Below are positions 24,096 through 38,961 of a stretch of 64,000 nt of DNA, piece after piece (the stretch's first letter is position 1; each line of letters opens with the position of its first letter). The position numbers and the translations under genes are program-made. Below the pieces are notes generated by a model. That model did no database searches and was not told the DNA's origin. It worked only from the letters and a program-made list of their open reading frames with translations. This DNA comes from Chloroflexota bacterium (GTDB lineage: Bacteria > Chloroflexota > Anaerolineae > Aggregatilineales > Phototrophicaceae). The stretch covers positions 297,632 through 361,631 of the forward strand of contig WTGJ01000027.1 of NCBI GenBank assembly GCA_011523615.1. Direction: 5' to 3'.

Positions 24096-25244
24096 TCAAA
24101 TCTGCAAAATGTGCGTCACAGCGGTAGCGGCCAGCCCGCCTATGTTTTGCACCATGGCATTGCGAATGTGGGGCAACTGGAGATCAGCGGCTTCACCGCG
24201 AAGCTGCTGGCAAGCTTCCGCAATTTGGTAAATGCCGGTGGCGCCGCCCACATCGCCGCGGGCCTTCAATCCGCCGGCGCAGGAAATTTCAGGCTGCCCT
24301 ACCCCTTCGCCATATTCACGCGCTTTTCGCCCCCCTTCTCCCATGCCCACGAAACCGGCAGCTTCCAAAGATAATGCAGCGAAGATGGAGAAGGCATCAT
24401 GCAGCTCAAACAGGTCGATATCCTCTTGGCTCATACTTGCAGCGGCTAACGCATTGTTTGTGGATCGAGCGATCGCTTCCAGGCGAGTCGGCTCGGGTCG
24501 TTCGGCCAAAGCCAAAGTGTCGGTAGCAACAGCGCTGCCTCGAATCATCACGGGCGGCCGAGCGTTGGTCGCCCCGGTTTTCAGCGAAGAAAGCACCACG
24601 GCAGCCGCGCCATCGCCCGGTGGTGCCATATCCAGCATACTGATCGGAGTGGCGATTTGCGGCGCTTTGCTGCTTGAGCCGGGTCGCAATGGGTTGCGAA
24701 ACATCGCCAAAGGGTTGTATTGACTTCGGCGATGGGCATGCAGGCTGAACCCTTCGAAATCGGTGGCTTGAATGTCGTAGGTTTCGCAATATGCCCGCAT
24801 CACCAACGCAGCCAGGACGGACAGAGTGGCCCCATGAGTGGCCTCAAAATCGGCATCCAGACTCACGCTCTTGGCGGCCAACCGATCTTCATGCGTGAGG
24901 TCGCTCTGTTTCTCCACCCCGCAAACCACGACGCAATCCATCAAACCGGAGGCAATGGCCAGATATCCGGCGCGCAGGGCGGCCCCACCAGAGGCTTCTG
25001 CGGCTTCGATGCGAAACCCTTCCACACCTCGCAAATCGGCGGCACTCGCGATCAAAGGGGCCAAATGAGCTTGACCGTTGATGGTACTGCCGTACGCATT
25101 GGCCACCCACAGCGCGGAAGGTTTTGGCTGGCCGGCATCTTCCAGAGCGAGCTGGATCGCTTGCGCTGCCAGTTCCCGCAAACTGCTGTCCCAATGTTCG
25201 GTAACCGCGGTCATCCCCAAACCGATGATGGCTACTTCATTCAT
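24096..25244 (-). CDS. archaeal-type thiolase homologue lacking catalytic Cys and His
   Basis: 382 residues of the SCP-x/archaeal acetyl-CoA acetyltransferase type (IIGLGMTAVTEHWDSSLREL, VVVCGVEKQSDL, FELHDAF at 279-285, QNIGGLAATAVTHIL). The nucleophile motif, normally close to EAACASGG, reads IEAAEASGGAAL with Glu83 in place of Cys (codon GAA). The C-terminal motif, normally GGLKARGHPVGATG, reads GGLKARGDVGGATG, so the catalytic His at 331 is Asp. The fold appears intact and the frame is uninterrupted, which points to a selected non-enzymatic protein. It sits between HMG-CoA synthase (three bases upstream) and the split DUF35 genes, so a structural role in the synthase complex is plausible. 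Confidence 0.9.
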   Translation of the reverse strand: MNEVAIIGLGMTAVTEHWDSSLRELAAQAIQLALEDAGQPKPSALWVANAYGSTINGQAHLAPLIASAADLRGVEGFRIEAAEASGGAALRAGYLAIASGLMDCVVVCGVEKQSDLTHEDRLAAKSVSLDADFEATHGATLSVLAALVMRAYCETYDIQATDFEGFSLHAHRRSQYNPLAMFRNPLRPGSSSKAPQIATPISMLDMAPPGDGAAAVVLSSLKTGATNARPPVMIRGSAVATDTLALAERPEPTRLEAIARSTNNALAAASMSQEDIDLFELHDAFSIFAALSLEAAGFVGMGEGGRKAREYGEGVGQPEISCAGGLKARGDVGGATGIYQIAEACQQLRGEAADLQLPHIRNAMVQNIGGLAATAVTHILQI

Positions 25245-25247
25245 CCT

Positions 25248-26324
25248 TCAATCCTTCAGCTTGCCGCGGAATCGGCAATAGGTAGCATAATCAATGGGGA
25301 TGCGCCGGCGGATGTATGTTTCCGTGGAGTTTGCGCGTGACTGTAGCGCTTCAATCCGTTCCGTAACGCGCAAATCGAAAGCATCGGAACCCGCGCCGCT
25401 GCCATAACTCACCATCAAGATGCGCGCGCCCGGCTTTGCCACATCCAGGATAGCCGTCAGGCCCAGCATGCACGAACCGGAATACACATTGCCCACCCGA
25501 TCCGCCAGCAATCCTGTTTCCAGTTGCTCCGCTACAAAGCCGAGCATTTTTCCGGCTCTGGATGGAAATTTCACATTGGGTTGGTGGAAAACAGCGTGAT
25601 CATAATCGCTTGCCTGGCTGCGCATCTCTTCCATCAAGGAGCTTGCGGCGGAGAGGGTATGGGCGAAATACGCGGGTTCACCGGTGAAACGGTCGGCATG
25701 AGTGGGGTAGGTTTCACCCGCGCGTCGCCAAAAATCTGGCGTATCGGTTACATAGGAGTAACTGGCCAGGAAGACCGCTCCTGCCTCATCCGCCGGCCCC
25801 AAAAGGAACGCCGCACCGCCACTGGCAGCGGTGTATTCCAGGGGGTCACCTGGGCGACCTTGTGCCGTATCCATCCCGATGCTCAATGTGTACTGACCCA
25901 TCCCACTGCCGATCAGGCCGATCGAGGCTTGCACGGCTTCGGTCCCCGCTTTGCAGGCGAATTCCCAATCCGCAGCCTGGATGTTGGGGGAAGTCCCGAG
26001 CGCTTCCGCCACGATGGTGCTGGTCGGTTTCACGGCATATGGGTGGCTCTCACTGCCGACCCAAACGGCCCTGAGTTGTTCCGGGGCGATGCCCGATCGG
26101 ATGATGGCGTTGCGCGCTGCTTCGATGGCCATCGTCGTCACGTCTTCATCCAAGCCAGCGACCGCTTTTTCGGTGATGGGGCTTTGGGCCGAGCCATCCG
26201 ACCAGACTCGGGCCACTTCGCTTCCCGGCAAGCGATATTGGGGGATGTATGCCCCATAACCGACGATGCCGACATCCTGGATGGACCGCATGAGATTTCG
26301 CTGTGTCGCCTGAGAAACGTTCAT
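25248..26324 (-). CDS. hydroxymethylglutaryl-CoA synthase, archaeal type
   Basis: 358 residues. IVGYGAYIPQYRLP at the N-terminus, Glu68 in MAIEAARN, nucleophile Cys124 in WEFACKAGTEA, His247 in FHQPNVKFP, and GNVYSGSCM. All three catalytic residues of the Cys-His-Glu set are present. It condenses acetyl-CoA with acetoacetyl-CoA to HMG-CoA. Its ATG overlaps the HMG-CoA reductase stop, and its own stop is three bases before the thiolase-like gene with GGATTGAAGG as ribosome-binding site. The downstream order synthase, thiolase, DUF35 parallels archaeal operons. Confidence 0.95.
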   Translation of the reverse strand: MNVSQATQRNLMRSIQDVGIVGYGAYIPQYRLPGSEVARVWSDGSAQSPITEKAVAGLDEDVTTMAIEAARNAIIRSGIAPEQLRAVWVGSESHPYAVKPTSTIVAEALGTSPNIQAADWEFACKAGTEAVQASIGLIGSGMGQYTLSIGMDTAQGRPGDPLEYTAASGGAAFLLGPADEAGAVFLASYSYVTDTPDFWRRAGETYPTHADRFTGEPAYFAHTLSAASSLMEEMRSQASDYDHAVFHQPNVKFPSRAGKMLGFVAEQLETGLLADRVGNVYSGSCMLGLTAILDVAKPGARILMVSYGSGAGSDAFDLRVTERIEALQSRANSTETYIRRRIPIDYATYCRFRGKLKD

Positions 26325-27661
26325 GAGTGATCTCCCGCAGATGTCATGCTCTTCATGAGTTCCGCGGCTCGAGAGGGGCGAATGTCATTTTCTGCGATCA
26401 TCACTGCTGCAATCTGCCCCACCATTTCATCGCTGGCACCCGCAGAAAGCGCGATTTGACGGGCGTGCAATCGCATGTGACCGTGTTGGATGCCTTCACC
26501 AGCCAAAGCCAGTAAGGCGGCGAAATTCTGCGCAAGGCCCACCGACGCAACGATTTCGGCGAGTTCGCTGGCGCTCTGGACATCGAGCAAAGCCAGGGCC
26601 GCTTTCGCTCCTGGATGAGCCCGGGTGCTTCCGCCTACGATGCCCAGAGCCAGGGGCAATTCAAGGGAACCCATCAGATTCCCGTATTCGTCCACTTGCC
26701 AGGTAGAAAGGCTGCGATAATTCCCCGTCCGCGCTGCATAGGCGTGCGCGCCCGCTTCCACCGCCCGCCAATCATTGCCTGTAGCCAGCACCACGGCGTC
26801 TATGCCGTTGAGGATGCCCTTGTTGTGGGTCGCCGCTCGATAGGGGTCTATTTCAGCGAGAGCCGCCGCTTCATAGACTCGTTGCAGAATGGGCGGCCCG
26901 TCTACGGAAGAGTGTGAGAAAGCGTCTGCATTGATTTGTGCTCGCGCCCGGGCCAGCCGCCGGTCATTCAAATTGCTGAGGATGCGCAAAACTACCCGGC
27001 CCTTGCTGATCTCAGCCAGTGAAGGAGCGATGCGTTCGAGCGCCGTATTGATGGCATTGGCACCCATGGCGTCCTGACAATCCACCAATAAATGCACCAC
27101 CAGCATCGGGCCGATTTTCGCGTGCGATAACTGGCGCAACTCGATCTCCCTCGCCCCACCGCCGCGCTGGGCCAAACTACCCAGCGCTTCATTCGCCGCT
27201 GCCAGGATCGCCGCTTTTTTCTCGTTGAGCGCAGCCATCGCTCGCTTCATTTGCGGTACATCCAGCAACTGAACCTGACCGATCATGAGGGGCGGATCGC
27301 TACTGGCGGTGATGCCGCCGGCAAGTCGCATGAGGCGTGCCGCGTTGCTGGCACCGGCGATGACGGAGGGTTCTTCCGTGATCATGGGGATGAGCCGATC
27401 CCGACCGTTGATGCGAAAATTAGTTGCGATGCCCAATGGCAATGCAAAGCGACCGATGGTGTTTTCGATCAACTGATCGGCGGTCTGCAGGTCCAACCCG
27501 TTCGGTGGCCCAAACAAATCCTGTCTGCTCGTTTCATCCCAATGACGGCTTGTCTGCGACGCCCAATCATGGACGATGGTTTGCCGCTCAGCGAGCGAAA
27601 GACGATGGAAACCAGTAAGGCGGGAACTGGGCAGATTTGGCTGCTGCATGGTGGTGAACAT
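26321..27661 (-). CDS. mvaA: class II HMG-CoA reductase
   Basis: 446 residues. Class II features are EEPSVIAGASNAARL (catalytic Glu), VDCQDAMGANAINT, ATHNKGILNGIDAVVLATGN (catalytic Lys) followed by DWRAVEAGAHAYA, and QHGHMRLHARQIALSAG (catalytic His). The class is known from Pseudomonas mevalonii and from biosynthetic pathways of Gram-positive bacteria; cofactor preference is not predictable here. It makes mevalonate and heads the HMG-CoA synthase operon. No good Shine-Dalgarno precedes ATG 27661; an in-frame ATG at 27649 is an alternative. Confidence 0.95.
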   Translation of the reverse strand: MFTTMQQPNLPSSRLTGFHRLSLAERQTIVHDWASQTSRHWDETSRQDLFGPPNGLDLQTADQLIENTIGRFALPLGIATNFRINGRDRLIPMITEEPSVIAGASNAARLMRLAGGITASSDPPLMIGQVQLLDVPQMKRAMAALNEKKAAILAAANEALGSLAQRGGGAREIELRQLSHAKIGPMLVVHLLVDCQDAMGANAINTALERIAPSLAEISKGRVVLRILSNLNDRRLARARAQINADAFSHSSVDGPPILQRVYEAAALAEIDPYRAATHNKGILNGIDAVVLATGNDWRAVEAGAHAYAARTGNYRSLSTWQVDEYGNLMGSLELPLALGIVGGSTRAHPGAKAALALLDVQSASELAEIVASVGLAQNFAALLALAGEGIQHGHMRLHARQIALSAGASDEMVGQIAAVMIAENDIRPSRAAELMKSMTSAGDHS

Positions 27662-28782: not shown

Positions 28783-28905
28783 GTCACCCTCGCCCCTGCT
28801 GCCCGTATTTTATCGTGCGGTCGATGCTCCGCAAGGGTCGACTCATAGAAATCAGCACCCTGCCCTGCTACACTCTTTTGAGTTTCCAATGTGAGGTTCA
28901 AGCAG

Positions 28906-30087
28906 GTGCCGGATCTGTTTGATAAAGCCAGCAAATTCACCTATGCCAAGGAAGCGATGGCTCTGGGCCTGTACCCTTATTTTCGCGCCTTGAGTGAATC
29001 CGAAGGCACTACGGCCATTTTTGAAGGCAAAGACGTGGTGATGATCGGCTCGAATAATTACCTGGGTTTGACCATGGATCCCAGAGTGAGGGCTGCGGCC
29101 TGTGATGCGATCGAGCAATATGGAACGAGCATGACCGGTTCCCGCTTCCTGAATGGCACCATCGAATTGCATTTGGAGCTGGATCGGCGGCTGGCCCGAT
29201 TCGTGGGCAAAGAAGCGGCACTCGTCTTTCCCACAGGATACCAGACCAACGTCGGCACCATATCGTCCCTGGTCCAAAAGGGGGATTTTGTCGTCATAGA
29301 TAAAGATTCTCATGCCAGTATCGTCGATGGTGCCATGATGTCCCGTGGGGAGATGAAGCGTTTCTTGCACAACGATGCCGAAAATTTGGACGCGGTTCTG
29401 ACCAAGTTACCCGAAGATGCGGGGAAATTGGTGATTGTGGATGGGGTCTACAGTATGGGTGGCGATATCGCCCCCTTGCCGGAGATCGTATCCGTTTGCA
29501 AGGAACACCGCGCCAGAATCCTGGTCGATGATGCCCATGGGATCGGCGTAACCGGTGACGGACATGGCACCGCCGCTCATTTTGGCCTCACTCACGACGT
29601 CGACCTGATCATGGGCACCTTCAGCAAGAGTTTTGCTTCCCTAGGGGGCTTCATCGCGGGATCGGAAGAAGTGGTGCATTACATCCAGCACTTTGCCCGT
29701 TCATTGGTTTTTTCTGCGGCGATTCCAGCACCGAGTGCTGCCGCCGTCCTCAAAGCGCTGGATATCATCGAAGCAGAGCCACAGCATGTCATCCAGTTGT
29801 GGGAAAACGCCGAATATATGAGAGCTGGTTTGCGAAACCTGGGTTTCAATACGGGGAATAGCGCAACTCCCATCATCCCCGTGATCATTGGGGAAGAATA
29901 CTTGACGAGCAAAGCCTGGAGTAGCTTGATCGACCAGGGCGCCTATACCAATCCCGTCGTTCCGCCCGGGGTACCACCCAACCAGAGTCTGTTGCGCACC
30001 AGTTATATGGCCCGCCACACTCGCGAACACCTCGATCACGCCTTGAACGCGTTCGAATACGTAGGCAAAGCGCTGAACCTGGTGTGA
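28906..30087 (+). CDS. alpha-oxoamine synthase family enzyme, serine palmitoyltransferase-like
   Basis: 393 residues from GTG 28906, nine bases after GAGG; GTG 28891 is the alternative (398 residues). PLP fold type I motifs are SNNYLGLTMDPRV, GTSMTGSRFLNGT, DKDSHASIVDGAMMS, VDDAHGIGVTG and the Schiff-base Lys in GTFSKSFASLGG. The family decarboxylatively condenses an amino acid with an acyl-CoA (BioF, Kbl, HemA, Spt). The N-terminal LGLYPYFRALSESEG followed by MIGSNNYLGL is closest to my memory of bacterial serine palmitoyltransferases, giving 3-ketosphinganine for sphingolipids. BioF or Kbl is the alternative, and neither biotin nor threonine genes are nearby. Confidence 0.85.
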   Translation: MPDLFDKASKFTYAKEAMALGLYPYFRALSESEGTTAIFEGKDVVMIGSNNYLGLTMDPRVRAAACDAIEQYGTSMTGSRFLNGTIELHLELDRRLARFVGKEAALVFPTGYQTNVGTISSLVQKGDFVVIDKDSHASIVDGAMMSRGEMKRFLHNDAENLDAVLTKLPEDAGKLVIVDGVYSMGGDIAPLPEIVSVCKEHRARILVDDAHGIGVTGDGHGTAAHFGLTHDVDLIMGTFSKSFASLGGFIAGSEEVVHYIQHFARSLVFSAAIPAPSAAAVLKALDIIEAEPQHVIQLWENAEYMRAGLRNLGFNTGNSATPIIPVIIGEEYLTSKAWSSLIDQGAYTNPVVPPGVPPNQSLLRTSYMARHTREHLDHALNAFEYVGKALNLV

Positions 30088-30178: not shown

Positions 30179-33100
30179 TCAATCCTGATTGCGCCGGTTG
30201 CGGAAGATGCGGGTCAGGAAAAGATGCGCTGGATTGAAGAGCATATAAGCCACGGGAACGACAACCAGGGTGAGGACCGTGCTGCCCAGCACACCGCCAA
30301 TCACCACCGTGCCCATTTCGGAAGCCACGATCGCTCCTTCCGATAATCCTACCGCCAAAGGCAACAAGGCGATGACGGTTGCCATCGATGTCATCAGGAT
30401 GGGGCGCAACCGGCGTGCTCCCGCTTCTTCTAGGGCCTCTCGGGTGTCCATGCCGCGTTGTTTGCGATTGGTCTGCACCCGATCGATGAGGACCACAGCA
30501 TTGGTGACCACGATGCCGATGAGCATCAAGAGACCGATCAATGCCGGGATGCCCAGCACGCGGTTCGTGATGGTCAGCGCGATGGCGGCGCCTACCGGGG
30601 CGACGATGACACTGAATATGATCACCAACCAGTACACCGGCGAGCCGAAAGTGATGATGAGGATGATGATGACCAGGACCAACGCGAGAATCATGGAGCG
30701 TCCCACGCTGATGAATCCTTCGGTTTGGACTTCGCTGGTGAAGCCCTGACTCACAACGATTTTCTCTGCCGCAGGTAGCGCTTCATTGATCTGTTGCAAC
30801 AGGGGTAAATCCTCAATGGTTTGGATCGCCTGTGCAGTGACGCCGATGGAATCCGCCGTCTCCAGATCCGCGCTGAATTGCAAGGCGGGGCGGCGATCGA
30901 TGCGGATGATGGATGCATTCTCTGGGTCGCTTGCATCACTGAGCGCGATGTTGCTGCTTACATTCACCAGGCCATCGATACTGGCTAAGGTTTGGATCAC
31001 GCAGGCATTGAGCCGTTCCAGACTTGCGGTACTGCCACTCATGATCATTTGAAATCCACCCACTCCCTCTCCACCGGCAGAAGTGGCCGTTACGGTGATG
31101 TCTGTGGCTGCGCTGCCTGCGCCCACGGTGAGCGGGGCTGCCTCCGCCGCCTCAACATCACAGTGATCGATGGTTTCGGTGTTGGCCGCAGCCGAAGCAG
31201 CACCCAGGAAAAATTGTCCAGATTCGTCGCGCAAGATGGTCAACCAGCGTTCTTGCGCTTCGAGGGAATTCATCGTCAGGGTGAGATTGGCGGTGTTACC
31301 ACTGATGTTGCTCACACCAATAGCGGCTTCATTGCCGCCAATGTTGCCCACTTCCGAGAGCAATTCGCGGACCTCGCTGGTTTCGCCGGGTTCATCATTG
31401 GCCCAGCCATCCTGGGATTTGATGAACTCTTCGAGCTGTTGCACGTTGGCATTCATCGTAAGGATCGAAGTTTCATTCGGCATTTGGATCTGCATCGTGA
31501 TTTGCGGTTCGCCCAGATCAGGGATGAAGGCGAAGGGACGCATGCCAAACAGGGCGAAACCGATGAACATGGAAACGATTGCGCCGGCTATGATCACCGT
31601 CACATTCCGCCAGCGCATCAGACCCCAGCGCAAGAATGGCAAGTAAATTTTCAATACCGCGTCGGCGATGGGGCCGGCATTTTCGCCGATGATGTCTTCT
31701 TCACGAATGAATATGGATGCCAATACGGGTACCACGATGATGGCTACCACGAATGATGCCGCCAAGGCGTAGGTTACGGCGATCCCAAAGGGCAGGAAGA
31801 ATTCACTGATCAAACCACCCGTCAACCCCAGGGGTAAGAAAACCACTACGGCCACGAAGGTTGCGGTGAATATCGCCGACGATACGTCACGCGTACCCGT
31901 GATGATCGCTTCTCGTTTGGAAACCTTAGAGACTTGCATTTGCCGGAAAATGTTTTCCAGGACGACGATGGAATCATCCACCACACGGCCAATCGCTACG
32001 GTGAGGCCGGATAGCACCATGATGTTCAAAGTCACATCGCGGGGGAACAGCTTGAGTATGAAGGTGATCAAAGCACCATCACCGAGTGGTTGGAGCAGAT
32101 CATGAACAAAATTGGGCAGGTGATGCAACATCGCCAGCGCCGACATCAGTGAAAGGGGGATGCTGATGGTCGTGACCAGGGTACTGCGCCAGGCGGGTAT
32201 CGGCAGATTGCCCGGGGAAACCAGGATGAGAACGCTGGTAATTGCGCCGACGATGAGCAGCACCCTCAACACGATGTCACTCGCTAGGAAAGCATCGACC
32301 ACATTGCCATTCGCTGTTTCGAGATTGCCCAGCGTCACGAGGATGATGCCCAGCGTGAAAGCGGCAAAGAGGATGATCCCTGCCAGCCTCCTCGGTTCTC
32401 GGCGCCATCGTCCATCGCTCAGGAAAAGCAAAATGACCACGATGGTGAAGACCGCGCCGAGCGCTCCTTCCCGGGCGACGCCGGTAATGGATTCTTCGAT
32501 GTAGCTCGCTTGTTCAGAGACCACCGTAATCTGAATGTTGGGATAGCGACTCTGGATTTGTTCCAGTTCCTCTTCGATGGCATGGTATGTTTCGACACTG
32601 TTTGCGTCGCTATTCTTCAAAACGGTGAGCAGTAGACTGGGTTGAGAATTCACGCTGGTGATGCTGGCGAGTGGCTGTACATTGACTCGTTGGGACCTTT
32701 GCGTAATTCCGGGTGAAAGCGCTTCCAGCTCCATCAGGACCGCAGGAGACAGCAAGCTCAAGGCTTCGGCACTCAAATCTGTCAAGAAATTCTCGTCATT
32801 GACTGCGATATAAGACATCGCTTCGAGGTTGATGTTGCCAAATATCCCAGGAGCAACTGCTTGCGCTCGTGGACCCAAAAAGATGCTATTCATGAAAGCG
32901 GCTGGGCTGCCCAAAACGTCGCTGAAACGGAAAAAATCATCCGCGGTATCCAGCTCGATCCCGTAAAAATCGGCCAGGGGTTGCCATTCCTCATTCAGGG
33001 CGGGGCCATCTTCGATGAGAATTTGCTGTTCTTCATTGTTTTCTGCCAGATTTTCTGCAAGCCAGCTTTCCAGGGCGGTGGGCGCACCCACGGCAATGGC

Positions 33101-35293
33101 TTCCAGTTCCGAGCGCAGGTCAGCCGTCAGGATGAGAGAACGTTCATCCTCAAGCAGTGCCACAATGCTTTCCCGCGAAAAGGAAAGCAAGACATCCTCC
33201 GCCAAAGTGGAATAAAAATCTTCGTTGCGCAACGCTAGAGTGCGTAGAGCCAGCGGCGTAATCTCATCCAACAGGCGAATTTGATTCGCTGGTATGGTGG
33301 GAGCCTCGCTGAAGGTGGCGATCCGGTTGAGCGCTTGTGCGGGTGAGTCGGCGATCAGCGTCAGAGAATCGGTCGTGACGTTGCCTGAGCTGTGGTCTGA
33401 AAGCAGGGTCTCCCAACCATTGCCTCCCATGGGCGGAGCAAAACCTGGAATCTCCAGTGCAAGCAGCACGTCCGGCAAATAGGTGTAAAAATCTTCTGAC
33501 AGGCTTGCGGTAAAAGTGGGATCGGCGGCCGCCAGCCAACGCAAGCTATCTTCATCGATGCAGGTGATCATGACACCGGTGCCCGCGGTAGTGAGTGCGG
33601 CCGCTTGACTCGGACTCAGCTGGTTTTCCACGCTGCATTCAGATATAGCGGCAAACAATGCTCCCAAATTGAGCGAATCACCCCCGGCTGTAACCGTATT
33701 GGTGAAATCCACACCGGCCATCAAAGCCGTCATGTTCAGGAACTGAGAGGCATTGAGCTGAGAAATGCCGAATGTTTCCGCCAATTCAGCGGGCAGCACG
33801 ATGTGCAGCAAGTCGTCCGCAGTATCCAACTCCAAGCCAAATGCAGCGGATAGCGCCGGATAGATGGCCGGCAGCTCAGGGCCCTCTGCAGAGCTTGGGC
33901 GAACCATCGTTTGGCCCGGTGGAACGTTCGCCGCTGCGGCATCGGTGCTGGGGATTTCCGCCTCTCCCGTGATGCTGAATATGGCGATGGGGAAATCTTC
34001 AAAACTGAACGTGAGCAACGATGGCACAGCGGTCCGCCAAGCATTGGGCAGGTCGACGGGTACCGGATTGCCCGGTGCGCCCAACAAATCTCGACCCAGC
34101 TCTTTCAAAGCGAGCAAGCGTCGAATGCGGGTATCCGCTGGCATCCTGATGTCTTCGGGCAACAGAGCGAGGAGCTCTCCTGGTAAGGCCAGCAGTTGTT
34201 CTTCATCGAAGGCAGCCGCAAAACTCGCATCGATCGCCAGCATTTGCTGGATGGTCGCCGCATCCAAGTCATTCGTTTGCCCCAAAGGACCACGAATTTC
34301 CCCCGTTCGGACGAAGTCATTCAGAATCTGCCCCAGGCTATTGCCAAATCCGACGATTTCCAGGAGATCATCCGCTGTCTGAAAGCGCGTCTCTTCAGCT
34401 GCAACCCAACTGCCGGGTAGTGAGGGGGCAGTTTCTGGCACAACGACAGCCTCAGCCGCCAAAGATTCTGTCAATCCCTGGCTCAGGGATTCGGTGATGC
34501 CAATTTTTTCAGCAATGATCTGCCAGGCTTCATCATCCAGTTGCAACAATAGGCTTCTGGTTGCAGCGCCACTTTCTGTCGCCTCCACCATTTCACCCAT
34601 CAAGCGATCCACCGATTCTCCACCACTGATGGATGCATCTGCTACATCATCCAATTCCAACAAATCGGGGATGATGGATTGGGCGACAAAGCGCTGTAAG
34701 GCGGTCGCGTTCTCGTCGACAAAGCTGGTTTGCCTCGCAAAAATGGGCAGGGCCGCGGCGACGGTTTCTGCAGAGAGAGCCGCCCATGTTTCAGGATTTA
34801 AATCCAACAAGAGGGTGGGGTCCGCGGCGGCCAGATACGTCAACGTTGCGCCATCCCAATCATTCAGCAGTCGAGTCGCAAACTCTGTTCCGTTTTCACC
34901 TGTCGGCGGTTTCAAGTGCCGGGTGGGCAACCAAAGGCGGCCGATGGCTTCATGAATCTGATCATCGAGCTCAGAGCGGTTGACGCCAAAATCATTGGAC
35001 AGATTGAGGAACAGAATGCCCGGATTGGTGTAAGATTCGATGTTCACGATGTCATCGATCTTTGCCATTTCTTCTTCGATTGGGATGGTGTACAGGTTGC
35101 TCACTTGAGTGCTGTTCATTCCACCCGCGAAAACAGTCACGAAGCTAGAAGGGAATTCGACCGGTGGTAACAACTCTTGATTCATGTTGGACCAGGATTG
35201 CACACCCAAGACCATCACCAGAGCGGAGAGTACGATCACCAACCAGCGAAAACGTAATGCAATGATGGTGAGCCAGTTAAAGAACGATCGCAT
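30179..35293 (-). CDS. giant RND-family transporter with a repeat-bearing insertion in the first periplasmic loop
   Basis: 1704 residues against about 1040 for AcrB. The RND core is clear: first membrane helix at about 15-33, QELLPPVEFPSSFVTVFAGG, the proton-relay motif GRVVDDSIVVLEN (1102-1114), and RRLRPILMTSMATVIALLPL near the C-terminus. The first periplasmic loop runs from about 35 to 942. Five copies of a roughly 38-residue unit of the form LxxxDxxFxxxLxxExLxxLPxxxLxxL begin near residues 148, 345, 581, 680 and 822. A second motif, ELDTADDLL or close to it, recurs near 305, 488 and 780. About 90 extra residues between the second and third core helices add two hydrophobic segments. It is the last gene of an operon with two ABC exporter genes; GGAGG precedes the start. 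Confidence 0.9.
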   Translation of the reverse strand: MRSFFNWLTIIALRFRWLVIVLSALVMVLGVQSWSNMNQELLPPVEFPSSFVTVFAGGMNSTQVSNLYTIPIEEEMAKIDDIVNIESYTNPGILFLNLSNDFGVNRSELDDQIHEAIGRLWLPTRHLKPPTGENGTEFATRLLNDWDGATLTYLAAADPTLLLDLNPETWAALSAETVAAALPIFARQTSFVDENATALQRFVAQSIIPDLLELDDVADASISGGESVDRLMGEMVEATESGAATRSLLLQLDDEAWQIIAEKIGITESLSQGLTESLAAEAVVVPETAPSLPGSWVAAEETRFQTADDLLEIVGFGNSLGQILNDFVRTGEIRGPLGQTNDLDAATIQQMLAIDASFAAAFDEEQLLALPGELLALLPEDIRMPADTRIRRLLALKELGRDLLGAPGNPVPVDLPNAWRTAVPSLLTFSFEDFPIAIFSITGEAEIPSTDAAAANVPPGQTMVRPSSAEGPELPAIYPALSAAFGLELDTADDLLHIVLPAELAETFGISQLNASQFLNMTALMAGVDFTNTVTAGGDSLNLGALFAAISECSVENQLSPSQAAALTTAGTGVMITCIDEDSLRWLAAADPTFTASLSEDFYTYLPDVLLALEIPGFAPPMGGNGWETLLSDHSSGNVTTDSLTLIADSPAQALNRIATFSEAPTIPANQIRLLDEITPLALRTLALRNEDFYSTLAEDVLLSFSRESIVALLEDERSLILTADLRSELEAIAVGAPTALESWLAENLAENNEEQQILIEDGPALNEEWQPLADFYGIELDTADDFFRFSDVLGSPAAFMNSIFLGPRAQAVAPGIFGNINLEAMSYIAVNDENFLTDLSAEALSLLSPAVLMELEALSPGITQRSQRVNVQPLASITSVNSQPSLLLTVLKNSDANSVETYHAIEEELEQIQSRYPNIQITVVSEQASYIEESITGVAREGALGAVFTIVVILLFLSDGRWRREPRRLAGIILFAAFTLGIILVTLGNLETANGNVVDAFLASDIVLRVLLIVGAITSVLILVSPGNLPIPAWRSTLVTTISIPLSLMSALAMLHHLPNFVHDLLQPLGDGALITFILKLFPRDVTLNIMVLSGLTVAIGRVVDDSIVVLENIFRQMQVSKVSKREAIITGTRDVSSAIFTATFVAVVVFLPLGLTGGLISEFFLPFGIAVTYALAASFVVAIIVVPVLASIFIREEDIIGENAGPIADAVLKIYLPFLRWGLMRWRNVTVIIAGAIVSMFIGFALFGMRPFAFIPDLGEPQITMQIQMPNETSILTMNANVQQLEEFIKSQDGWANDEPGETSEVRELLSEVGNIGGNEAAIGVSNISGNTANLTLTMNSLEAQERWLTILRDESGQFFLGAASAAANTETIDHCDVEAAEAAPLTVGAGSAATDITVTATSAGGEGVGGFQMIMSGSTASLERLNACVIQTLASIDGLVNVSSNIALSDASDPENASIIRIDRRPALQFSADLETADSIGVTAQAIQTIEDLPLLQQINEALPAAEKIVVSQGFTSEVQTEGFISVGRSMILALVLVIIILIITFGSPVYWLVIIFSVIVAPVGAAIALTITNRVLGIPALIGLLMLIGIVVTNAVVLIDRVQTNRKQRGMDTREALEEAGARRLRPILMTSMATVIALLPLAVGLSEGAIVASEMGTVVIGGVLGSTVLTLVVVPVAYMLFNPAHLFLTRIFRNRRNQD

Positions 35294-35298
35294 GAGTT

Positions 35299-37074
35299 TT
35301 ATGCCTCCTGTAAGTCAGCCATGGTATACAACCGACGATAGATTCCATCGTGTTCGAGCAATTCATGGTGAGAGCCCATTTCCATGATTTCGCCAGCCTC
35401 GAGCACGATGATGATATCTGCGTTGGTGATGGTGCTGAGGCGATGGGCGATCACGATGCTGGTCCGATCTTGCAAGAGATGAGCCAAACCGTTTTGAATG
35501 ATGCGCTCTGTTTTTGTGTCTATATTGCTCGTCGCTTCGTCCAATATGAGGATTCTGGGGTCGGCGAGATAGGCACGAGCGAGAGAAATCAATTGTTTTT
35601 GGCCGGTCGAAAGTGAAGTGCCCCCTTCACTCAATTCGGTTTCATAGCCTTCGGGCAATTTGCGGATGAAATCATGAGCGCCGATCTCTCGGGCAGCCGT
35701 TTCTACTTCCTCGTCCGTTGCGTTCAGGCGACCAAAACGGATGTTATCCTGGATGCTGCCAGAAAAAAGATGTGACTCCTGCAAGACCGCACCCATTTGA
35801 TTGCGCAAACTGAATTGGGTGACCTTCCGCAAATCGTGTCCGTCGACGGTGATGCTGCCAGAGCTCACGTCATAGAAACGCTGGATCAATTTGATGATGG
35901 TCGTTTTTCCGGCCCCGGTGTGACCGACCAGGGCAATCGTGGTCTTCGGTGGCACAGCAAAATCAATATCATGAAGGATATCTTCCCCTTCATCCTGGTA
36001 TTGGAATGAGACATTCTCGAAGCGGATCGTACCCTCGATCTGCGGCATCGCGTATGCGTCCGGCGCATCTTTTACATCTTGTTTACGATCGAGCAAATCA
36101 AAGATCTTGTGACAAGCAGCCATGACTGCCTGAAACAAATTGTAGCGTTGGGCCAGCATACGAATGGGGAAAAAGAACTGTTCAATATAAACGGTGAACA
36201 TGACCAGGACGCCGACCGTCAGCTCGCCATCCAATATCAATGTCCCCCCTACAGCGACGATCAGGCCCAAAGCGATGCCGCCGACCAGCTCGATGGAAGT
36301 AAAAAATAAGCTGGCGACCATGGCGGCTTTGGTGTTGTTGCGGAGGTGGGCATGATTGATTTCACCGATGAAGCGCTGCTGATTGAAGTCTTCGCGGGTG
36401 TAAGATTGGGTCACACGGACCCCGTTGAAGGCTTCTGCCAACTCTGAATTCACGCTGGCGTTCGATTCACGAACCAAGAGATATATTTTGCGGGCATGGA
36501 TGCGCCATACATTGGCGATGACGCTGAGGACGATGATGATGCCAAAGGAAAGGATCGTGAGCGGAAAGCTGAAAATAAGCATCGAAATGAAAATGCCGAA
36601 CAGGATCAGCAGATCACGAACCGTTCCGACCAAAGCCCAGGTGATCAACTCACGCAATAGATTGACGTCACTGATGACTCGGGCGATGATCCGACCCGTT
36701 TCATAGTCGGCGAAGAAGGAAATGGATAAGCGTTGCAATTGGGCGAACAACTCATCGCGCAATTCCTGGATGACTGCTTGGCCCGCCTTGGCCATGATCA
36801 ACATTTGAAAACGAAAACCAAAAAAGCCAATCACTTGAATCAGCATGAGCACGAGGATGGCTTGCCAGATGTTGCGAAAACTGCCTGCTTTAATTCCTTC
36901 ATCAATGACGTAGCGGATCGCCGGAGCGAATGATAGGCTGGCACCCACATTCAGCAGCATCAAAAACATGGAGATGTAGACTCGTCTTTTATGAGGGATC
37001 ACATAAGATAAGAGTCGTCGGGTGATCCTCCAATCAAACTTCTCAAATCCTTCTGCACCGCTGCGAAATCCCAT
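35299..37074 (-). CDS. ABC exporter half-transporter, catalytic-Glu subunit of a heterodimer
   Basis: 591 residues: a six-helix membrane domain (about 25-320) and an ATPase domain with Walker A GHTGAGKTT, Walker B ILILDEATSNID and an H-loop IAHRLST. The catalytic Glu is present, but the signature reads LSTGQKQLI rather than LSGGQ. The gene upstream has the complementary defects, so the pair should form a heterodimer with one working site and one degenerate site, as in the TM287/288 type. It lies three bases after its partner and five bases before the RND gene. Substrate is unknown (drug, lipid or peptide). Confidence 0.92.
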   Translation of the reverse strand: MGFRSGAEGFEKFDWRITRRLLSYVIPHKRRVYISMFLMLLNVGASLSFAPAIRYVIDEGIKAGSFRNIWQAILVLMLIQVIGFFGFRFQMLIMAKAGQAVIQELRDELFAQLQRLSISFFADYETGRIIARVISDVNLLRELITWALVGTVRDLLILFGIFISMLIFSFPLTILSFGIIIVLSVIANVWRIHARKIYLLVRESNASVNSELAEAFNGVRVTQSYTREDFNQQRFIGEINHAHLRNNTKAAMVASLFFTSIELVGGIALGLIVAVGGTLILDGELTVGVLVMFTVYIEQFFFPIRMLAQRYNLFQAVMAACHKIFDLLDRKQDVKDAPDAYAMPQIEGTIRFENVSFQYQDEGEDILHDIDFAVPPKTTIALVGHTGAGKTTIIKLIQRFYDVSSGSITVDGHDLRKVTQFSLRNQMGAVLQESHLFSGSIQDNIRFGRLNATDEEVETAAREIGAHDFIRKLPEGYETELSEGGTSLSTGQKQLISLARAYLADPRILILDEATSNIDTKTERIIQNGLAHLLQDRTSIVIAHRLSTITNADIIIVLEAGEIMEMGSHHELLEHDGIYRRLYTMADLQEA

Positions 37075-37077
37075 CGA

Positions 37078-38961
37078 TCAATGCCGACCCATCCGGTCCA
37101 GGATCTGCTGGAACTCAACCGTTGCTCGTTTTTCTTCCAGGTGTTTGTGTTTCGGGTCTATCGCTGCACGCGTCCTTTCCTGATCGGCCAGCTGCAATTC
37201 ATAGATTTCATGGTAATAGCCGTTCAGCTGCAGCAGCTCCTCGTGCGTCCCTTGCTCCACGATGTGCCCTTCATCCAGCACGATGATTTGGTCGGCATTC
37301 ATGACAGAAGACAGCCGTTGTGCGATGACAAAAGTCGTTCGGTTTTGCATCAACTGGCGCAAGGCGAGCTGAATCAACACCTCTGTATGGGTATCGACGC
37401 TGCTCGTGGAATCATCCAGAATGAGGATGCAGGGGTCGATGAGGATGGCCCTGGCGATGGCGACGCGTTGTCGTTGCCCACCCGATAAGGTAATCCCCCT
37501 TTCGCCAATGATCGTTTGATAGCCATCCGGTAATTCCTGGATGAATTCATGGGCATTGGCCGCTCTGGCCGCCCGGAGGATCTCTTCATCGCTCGCTTCC
37601 GGGTGACCATAAGCGATGTTATCCGCGATGCTCGCAGAGAACAGGAGGGATTCTTGCAGCACAAAACCAATCTGCCGACGCAAACTGTGGAGATCTACTT
37701 CTCGAATGTCCTGGCCGTCGATGAGGATTCTGCCTTCGGTCACGTCGAAGAAACGGGGAATCAGATTGATGACCGTGGTTTTGCCAGAACCCGTCGCACC
37801 GAGCAAAGCAATGGCCTGACCCGGCAGGGCTTCGAGCGAGATGTGATGTAAGGTTGGGCTTTCGCCATCTTCAAACTGAAAACTCACGTCTTCGAAAATC
37901 ACATGACCTTTGATGCGAGGCATCTGTGGCGCGTTCGCTTGGCTCTGGATCGGGTTCGGCGTGTCCAAAATCTCAAAGACGCGTTGGCTGCTGGTGGCCG
38001 CTTGAGTGGTCAGCAAAATTACAAAGCCCAGAAACCGCAATGGCTGGGCCAACATGAAGACAAAAGTATTGAATGCCGTAACTGTGCCTACCGTCACATT
38101 GCCCAATTCGGATATGGCCATTACGCCACCAAAGAAGAGCACGGAAGCCATTGCCGTGGCGACCAAAAAGGCGCTGGCCGGAAAGAAAAACGTCCACTGA
38201 TTGACCAACGCCAATTGCTCGTGGAAGAGCAATTCATTTTGCTCGGCAAAGAGTTTCTTTTCGTGTTCTTCTCTGGCATAGGCACGGACGACCGCCGCGC
38301 CGAGGATGTTTTCCTGCAAGTGATTGCTCAATTTTTGGATGCGGTTCATGATGTTGCGCCATTTCGGCGCTACGCGAATGATGAAGGTCTGTGAATACCT
38401 CATCAGTGGAATCAACGGGATGATCGCCGCCAGGGTCAGATAAGGGCTGATGAAGAACATCGCAACGGTGATGCAAACCAGGAGCAGTGCGATGTTCACG
38501 CCATCGATGAAACCATAGGCGAAATAGCGTTGGATCTCGTCTACATCGCTGATGGCCCGCGTGATCAGCGTCCCCGTTGGCGTTTTATTGTGATAGGCGA
38601 AGGGCAAACGCTGCACTTTGTCATAGACTTCATTGCGAATGTCGTAGGCTACATAGTGGGAGAGCCGCTCACCGAAATAGCGGAGGAGCATGCTGCTTGC
38701 GCCTCGAATCACGGCGAGCCCACAAATCAAGCCACCCGCCAACAGCATGAATGGGTAACCCTGTTCGCCCAAGTTGACGCCGTAATCGATCACTGTCCTC
38801 AAGATCAACGGCAAAGTGGTCTGGAGGATGACGGTGATCAATACACCACAAAATGCCAGGACCGCCCACCTGCGATAGGGTTGCATATAAGTCAGCATTC
38901 TGCGCCAGGAAGCCAGAGCATCAGCCGTCTTCGCGTGGTTTTGGGCAGCCGTGTCGGTCAT
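37078..38961 (-). CDS. ABC exporter half-transporter, degenerate-site subunit of a heterodimer
   Basis: 627 residues: membrane domain about 30-335, then Walker A GATGSGKTT, canonical signature LSGGQRQRV, and Walker B ILILDDSTSSVD with Asp replacing the catalytic Glu. The canonical signature completes the active site formed with the Glu of the partner encoded downstream. The C-terminal tail ends in a charged helix. ATG 38961 is preceded by GGGAAGGTC. It is the first gene of the three-gene operon with its partner and the giant RND protein. Confidence 0.92.
   Translation of the reverse strand: MTDTAAQNHAKTADALASWRRMLTYMQPYRRWAVLAFCGVLITVILQTTLPLILRTVIDYGVNLGEQGYPFMLLAGGLICGLAVIRGASSMLLRYFGERLSHYVAYDIRNEVYDKVQRLPFAYHNKTPTGTLITRAISDVDEIQRYFAYGFIDGVNIALLLVCITVAMFFISPYLTLAAIIPLIPLMRYSQTFIIRVAPKWRNIMNRIQKLSNHLQENILGAAVVRAYAREEHEKKLFAEQNELLFHEQLALVNQWTFFFPASAFLVATAMASVLFFGGVMAISELGNVTVGTVTAFNTFVFMLAQPLRFLGFVILLTTQAATSSQRVFEILDTPNPIQSQANAPQMPRIKGHVIFEDVSFQFEDGESPTLHHISLEALPGQAIALLGATGSGKTTVINLIPRFFDVTEGRILIDGQDIREVDLHSLRRQIGFVLQESLLFSASIADNIAYGHPEASDEEILRAARAANAHEFIQELPDGYQTIIGERGITLSGGQRQRVAIARAILIDPCILILDDSTSSVDTHTEVLIQLALRQLMQNRTTFVIAQRLSSVMNADQIIVLDEGHIVEQGTHEELLQLNGYYHEIYELQLADQERTRAAIDPKHKHLEEKRATVEFQQILDRMGRH

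Follow-up and report, generated by a model that had tools for sequence, protein, structure and literature searches.

The window, that is, the whole stretch of 64,000 nt analysed here, carries a large open reading frame on its minus strand, next to a convergent gene and two further genes on the same strand. All coordinates given are those of the window, and residue numbers are those of the 1704-amino-acid (aa) RND protein.

28891–30087, plus strand: convergently oriented alpha-oxoamine synthase, most similar to serine palmitoyltransferase (NCBIfam SerpalmtaseCFB 492 bits, under the cut-off of 640)
30179–35293, minus strand: RND-family exporter with a repeat arm, 1704 aa (ACR_tran 352.8 bits)
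35299–37074, minus strand: ABC exporter half of 591 aa, immediately upstream of the RND reading frame
37078–38961, minus strand: ABC exporter half, 627 aa

The reading frame at 30179–35293 contains no internal stops. Its product scored 352.8 bits against ACR_tran (PF00873, cut-off 28) and 25.8 bits against MMPL (PF03176, cut-off 20.5), ACR_tran being the best-scoring family, which agrees with the original prediction of an RND transporter. In the window genome the ACR_tran cut-off was exceeded by one protein, the window RND. Orthologs occur throughout the window's taxonomic family, with matches in 42 of 98 genomes and most of them 1620–1690 aa long; among the named records, Anaerolineae or Chloroflexi MAGs predominate, and some carry the label Aggregatilineales. 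As orthologs of similar length are present family-wide and the reading frame is intact, the gene is not an assembly artefact, and the window protein is an intact member of a conserved family. A window-type gene with the usual neighbours was also seen on a 1.02 Mb contig (L060, JAHHHY010000001.1) deposited as ‘Pleurocapsa minor’ (Cyanobacteriota); its RND groups inside the window family in the tree, and the record is probably a mislabelled or mixed genome.

The alpha-oxoamine synthase, whose closest known type is the Bacteroidota-type serine palmitoyltransferase (at a score under the cut-off), is found beside the RND reading frame at about 27 of the 31 loci with enough flank, mostly in convergent orientation, and lies upstream on the same strand in L064 and L065. 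It was not found in the flanks read near the RND genes of three related families (f4, f8 and f94, see below), and a literature search returned no paper on sphingolipids in Chloroflexota. The ABC exporter halves are absent beside most RND orthologs, and an operon partnership of the RND and ABC genes was rejected because this neighbourhood is not conserved. Elsewhere in the window, genes for a thiolase, an HMG-CoA synthase of archaeal type and an HMG-CoA reductase lie in a row on the minus strand (24096–27661), an isoprenoid (mevalonate) gene set.

Within the RND gene, the following features were assigned, in the order of the protein.

34934–35182, minus strand: porter subdomain PN1, residues 38–120 (ordinary-RND HMM 7–122 equals residues 5–120; AF2 strands and helices 46–127)
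34733–34852, minus strand: repeat unit 1, residues 148–187, between PN1 and PN2 (repeat HMM iE 9e-8)
34625–34702, minus strand: PN2 α1-β2, residues 198–223, ALQRFVAQSIIPDLL..VADASISGG (profile match to f4/f8 PN2 148–195, E 5e-11; AF2 helix 198–212, strand 217–223)
34082–34426, minus strand: repeat unit 2, residues 290–404, an LPGSW..FQTADDLLE half and the half at 337–383 (iE 8e-7)
33959–34057, minus strand: permuted PN2 β1, residues 413–445, LPNAWRTAVPSLLTFSFEDFPIAIFSITGEA (match to f4/f8 PN2 β1, E 1.5e-6; AF2 strands 425–430, 435–443)
33449–33874, minus strand: repeat unit 3, residues 474–615, an ELDTADDLL half and a weak half at 582 (half-units iE 0.009, 0.035)
33089–33448, minus strand: repeat unit 4, residues 616–735 (iE 2e-6 at 675–734)
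32690–33004, minus strand: repeat unit 5, residues 764–868, an ELDTADDFF half and the half at 820 (iE 4e-6 at 820–854; half-unit 768–786 weak)
32513–32644, minus strand: PN2 β3-α2-β4, residues 884–927, running into TM2 (ordinary-RND HMM 296–385 equals residues 871–959; AF2)
32219–32401, minus strand: two extra TM helices between TM2 and TM3, residues 965–1025 (hydropathy peaks 970–988, 1007–1025; AF2 helices 965–989, 1007–1025)
31973–31978, minus strand: Asp-Asp proton-relay pair of TM4, D1106 and D1107 (invariant columns, 36 sequences)
30926–30931, minus strand: second-loop junction without DC, near residue 1455 (about 80 ordinary-RND columns unmatched by the family profile)

The repeats were examined with a profile HMM built only from units of relatives outside the window family (f4 and f8), with no window-family sequence included. 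This profile recovered units in the window protein at residues 150–185 (iE 9e-8), 337–383 (8e-7), 582–612 (0.035, weak), 675–734 (2e-6) and 820–854 (4e-6), together with half-units at 474–495 and 768–786, and none of 500 shuffled inserts reached an iE of 1e-3. The five repeat starts originally placed at 148, 345, 581, 680 and 822 were thus found again by an independent model, and, judged by profile significance, the repeats in the window protein are real. The tandem unit has the consensus LPESWVAGAAAAGLEIETTADLTPEVLAALAEFAPQLLAELTPEILRALSPEVLALLPAEYLATLDADLRAELDAIAA, taken from f4/f8 relatives of the same class (1351 to 1761 aa), and a length of ∼80 residues; the window arm holds five degenerate units, members of the window family about five to seven (repeat HMM) and the relatives four to eight. 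A TADDLL motif previously described as a second motif alternating with the repeats does exist, but it is the N-terminal half of the ∼80-residue unit, which is whole in the relatives; the repeat pattern originally described forms the other half. The module lies in the first extracytoplasmic loop, as had been proposed; the extra material there is ∼720 residues (about 121–197 plus 224–870), not ∼600, and it replaces a domain. The original prediction knew of no RND protein with such a module, and no Pfam or NCBIfam family covers it. When a 400-genome sample of the phylum was searched with the unit profile, three genomes matched, all of the same class, a search that missed the window's own units; a contig scan of genomes with window-family patterns returned the window family. 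The arm alignment (A1) contains 51 invariant columns across 20 relatives that are 32–38% identical to the window protein, and repeat unit 3 is conserved across the window family. In the relative L110, adjacent units between residues 363 and 720 are almost identical in sequence, which suggests a recent tandem expansion.

The docking or funnel subdomains of RND pumps, DN and DC, have been described (PMC8277102, PMC4403515). Alignment of the f4 relative L044 with the solved MdtB covered MdtB residues 22–191 and then 284–389, 92 MdtB residues being exchanged for 475 others. Against an HMM of ordinary Chloroflexota RNDs, L044 skipped the model positions between 183 and 287, where it has 458 other residues instead, and those between 732 and 822, where it has nothing; the replaced segment (184–286) and the cleanly deleted one (733–821) correspond by position to DN and DC. 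In the window protein aligned alone the DC gap was smeared into many small deletions, and it was resolved by the family profile. The AF2 model of the C-terminal half (pLDDT 81), which matched AcrB-type pumps in a fold search, showed VNVSSN leading directly into the PC2 return strand with no additional domain, and the model of residues 224–870 contained no DN strands besides the moved PN2 strand described below and one four-residue strand. These alignments and models show that the repeat insert replaces DN and that DC is deleted in the window family, and that the crown which meets TolC is therefore absent; the simple insertion between porter subdomains envisaged originally does not describe this arrangement. 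That the protein is an ordinary RND, merely divergent in its porter and docking domain, is the least credible alternative, since the porter subdomains are indeed present but the repeats are significant by an independent profile, the family profile lacks about 80 docking columns in the second loop and the DN strands are missing from the AF2 model, and it was rejected.

PN2 is built on a six-element plan, β1-α1-β2-(DN)-β3-α2-β4 (PMC8277102). In the window protein, residues 198–235 matched the α1-β2 profile of f4/f8, and a segment with the window-family consensus PQLITFSFDDLPLATFSV, corresponding to β1, was located at 413–445, behind a repeat unit and shifted ∼220 residues downstream. When the profile of the window family (f1) was compared with the β1 segment of f4/f8, this was the sole match, with a score of 44 as against a maximum of 19.4 among 60 column-shuffled templates and 16.0 for the reversed control. 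In the AF2 model, the elements of PN2 (435–443, 198–212, 217–223 and 884–927) are complete only if the moved strand is included, and the strands at 425–443 are the only candidates to complete the plan. L118 belongs to a different family of the window's order, and in it a block of repeat, LPxAWR and β1 precedes α1-β2; this block, whose repeat is homologous to unit 2 of the window protein, corresponds to window residues 330–445 (E 2.7e-15), and thus the block moved, or was copied and then pruned, on the branch of the window family. By profile and model, then, PN2 is permuted in the window family. The extra TM pair is common to the window family and absent from the f4, f8 and f94 relatives, and it was gained on the same branch as the permutation.

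The AF2 model of the N-terminal half (pLDDT 79, 36 sequences) predicted an all-helical arm, with zero strands per repeat and with short helices of which several begin eight residues apart (356, 364, 372 and 380). Hydrophobicity autocorrelation over the family arm peaked at lag 8 (0.14; shuffle SD 0.036), and a profile of relatives' units (A4) found as its best match in the PDB 9zem, ‘HeliScrew4’ (E 7.6e-15), a chain of LTPEQIAA octads. Strict runs of an eight-residue pattern were not found in the window protein, and the period is therefore taken from the family autocorrelation and the 9zem match. The likeness to 9zem, one of sequence profile, consists in the octad short-helix steps of LTPEQIAA type; 9zem is composed of 120 residues of plain octads, whereas the repeat units add an LPxxW...TTADL segment. 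A fold search with the N-terminal model returned only RNDs, at TM-scores of about 0.16 over very long alignments and mostly with poor superpositions, and a literature search found no paper on HeliScrew, the origin of 9zem or such repeat-armed RNDs. Mesothelin-type proteins form extracellular right-handed solenoids of many short helices (PMC10035497) and offer an analogy alone, as the PDB search gave no hit to them in sequence at E ≤ 1. The arm had originally been called leucine-rich repeats, and a true LRR fold forming a ligand-binding crown would account for the periodic Leu-rich motif and for weak PDB matches to designed LRR proteins (E 0.006 to 1). Neither Pfam nor NCBIfam yielded an LRR match, however, and in the PDB the octad protein 9zem matched best; an LRR fold was rejected on the family searches and the AF2 model, and such a crown is very improbable. 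Given the short helices, the lag-8 peak and the lack of a strand in each repeat, the module is therefore Leu-rich yet not an LRR.

Phylogenetic analysis placed the docking-less repeat-armed RNDs in one clade (support 100/100), with L118 as sister of the window family (99/97). These relatives, all of the same class, belong to f4 (L044, L122), f8 (L107–L117) and f94 (L118). They share with the window protein the loss of DN and DC and an identical type of repeat unit, and differ from it in their arms of four to eight units, the normal order of PN2 and the absence of the extra TM pair; f94 has a single unit ahead of PN2 β1, and f8 has the clearest tandem copies.

Unlike the window protein, the f6 RNDs L130 and L135 retain their docking regions, and carry a ∼80-residue repeat unit within the DN region, identified in L130 by the unit-profile search and in L135 by eye. 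A LysM domain scored 42.7 bits in L135 (cut-off 20.9) and 19.8 bits, just under this cut-off, in L130. The insert of L130 lies between MdtB residues 255 and 262, which, from the closely similar numbering, we take to be the site of the D256 hairpin of AcrB. This β1 hairpin of AcrB faces TolC (PMC2292822). Neither LysM nor any other recognised wall-binding domain was found in the window protein or the docking-less relatives scanned. The f6 forms suggest a path in which repeat and wall-binding material was first acquired at the TolC-facing tip, the docking fold was then lost and the arm became free. As the tree did not settle the position of f6 relative to the docking-less clade, this path is a proposal, and f6 may have acquired its insert independently.

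Searches for TolC-family OEP, Omp85 and HlyD_D23, each with one profile per family and each positive in control genomes, gave no match in the window genome, which is 94% complete, in keeping with the original view that the cell probably lacks an outer membrane channel. OEP was likewise absent from eight of nine relatives' genomes, the single match being a short reading frame from a fragmented assembly. To judge from the families missing in this 94% complete genome, there is no sign of an outer membrane in the window lineage.

The analysis shows the repeat units, the absence of DN and DC, the conservation of the family, its relatives and their tree, and the permuted PN2. We favour the reading that the protein is an RND exporter driven by protons and adapted to a single-membrane envelope, in which the docking crown has given way to a wall-side repeat arm, probably a solenoid of ∼80-residue units built from eight-residue short-helix steps; we put the probability of this explanation as a whole at about 60%. 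As to transport direction, oligomeric state, wall contact and substrate, we infer the following. The TM core with its proton-relay Asp residues and the porter would use protons to operate like those of other RND pumps. With the crown gone, there would be no outer channel to open, and a substrate at the top of the porter would already be outside the membrane. The arm, placed where AcrB holds TolC, would most likely hold or anchor the pump at peptidoglycan or at a partner on the wall side; should the pump be trimeric, up to three arms could stand around the substrate exit. The wall-spanning extension or crown proposed originally, and with it a possible contact of the arm with the wall, is backed indirectly by the f6 relatives, one of them with a clear LysM domain, whose repeat sits at the TolC-facing hairpin. 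In AcrB, PN2 moves during the transport cycle; the moved strand would couple the arm to this moving subdomain, so that the arm may move along with it. A bolder extension, which we hold tentatively and consider rather unlikely, is a single-protein counterpart of tripartite efflux, in which arms of adjustable length would replace the crown and pass the substrate outward through the wall, the LysM form being an intermediate and the transposed strand the anchor of the arm.

Two further alternatives concern what the arm is for. The repeats could be a functionless tract, tolerated and expanding freely in a loop left idle by the loss of docking, as the four to eight units among relatives and the near-identical adjacent copies in L110 would allow; the length kept within the window family and the many conserved arm residues, with 51 invariant columns at 32–38% identity, argue against it, and we regard it as improbable. 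A stronger competitor, although still clearly less probable than the favoured reading, is a crownless exporter of lipid or sphingolipid-like molecules in the style of MmpL3 or HpnN, the arm acting as a chaperone or shuttle to which the porter hands the lipid. A lipid substrate deserves serious consideration because the oxoamine synthase adjoins the gene in most of the loci. RNDs that export lipids lack the crown, as the window protein does, and the weak MMPL match points the same way. Against this, the ACR_tran score lies far above that of MMPL, the synthase is under its family cut-off, and it was not encountered beside the f4, f8 and f94 genes.

The window family provides a testable case for the operation of RND pumps in single-membrane cells. 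Such pumps are known mainly from machines that cross two membranes, and the window family presents one where no outer-membrane channel was found: both docking subdomains are lost, a solenoid outside Pfam has apparently grown in their place, with a number of units that differs between lineages, and a rare natural permutation has arisen, by profile and model, within a porter subdomain that must move in transport.

Compared with AcrB/MdtB-type RNDs (HAE-1), the window protein has in common the plan of the TM core, the Asp pair of TM4, the RPILMT motif and the porter subdomains PN1, PN2, PC1 and PC2. It differs in that the tripartite arrangement of RND/HAE-1 systems appears to be lacking, no OMF gene having been found in the genome and neither OEP nor HlyD_D23 (the one adaptor family searched) being detected there, and in that DN and DC are missing, a repeat arm stands at the place of DN, PN2 is permuted and, beyond the twelve TM helices of RND/HAE-1, the window family has two more. 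The finding is more unusual than originally described, yet it represents a variant within an established family of transporters and not a system of a new kind.
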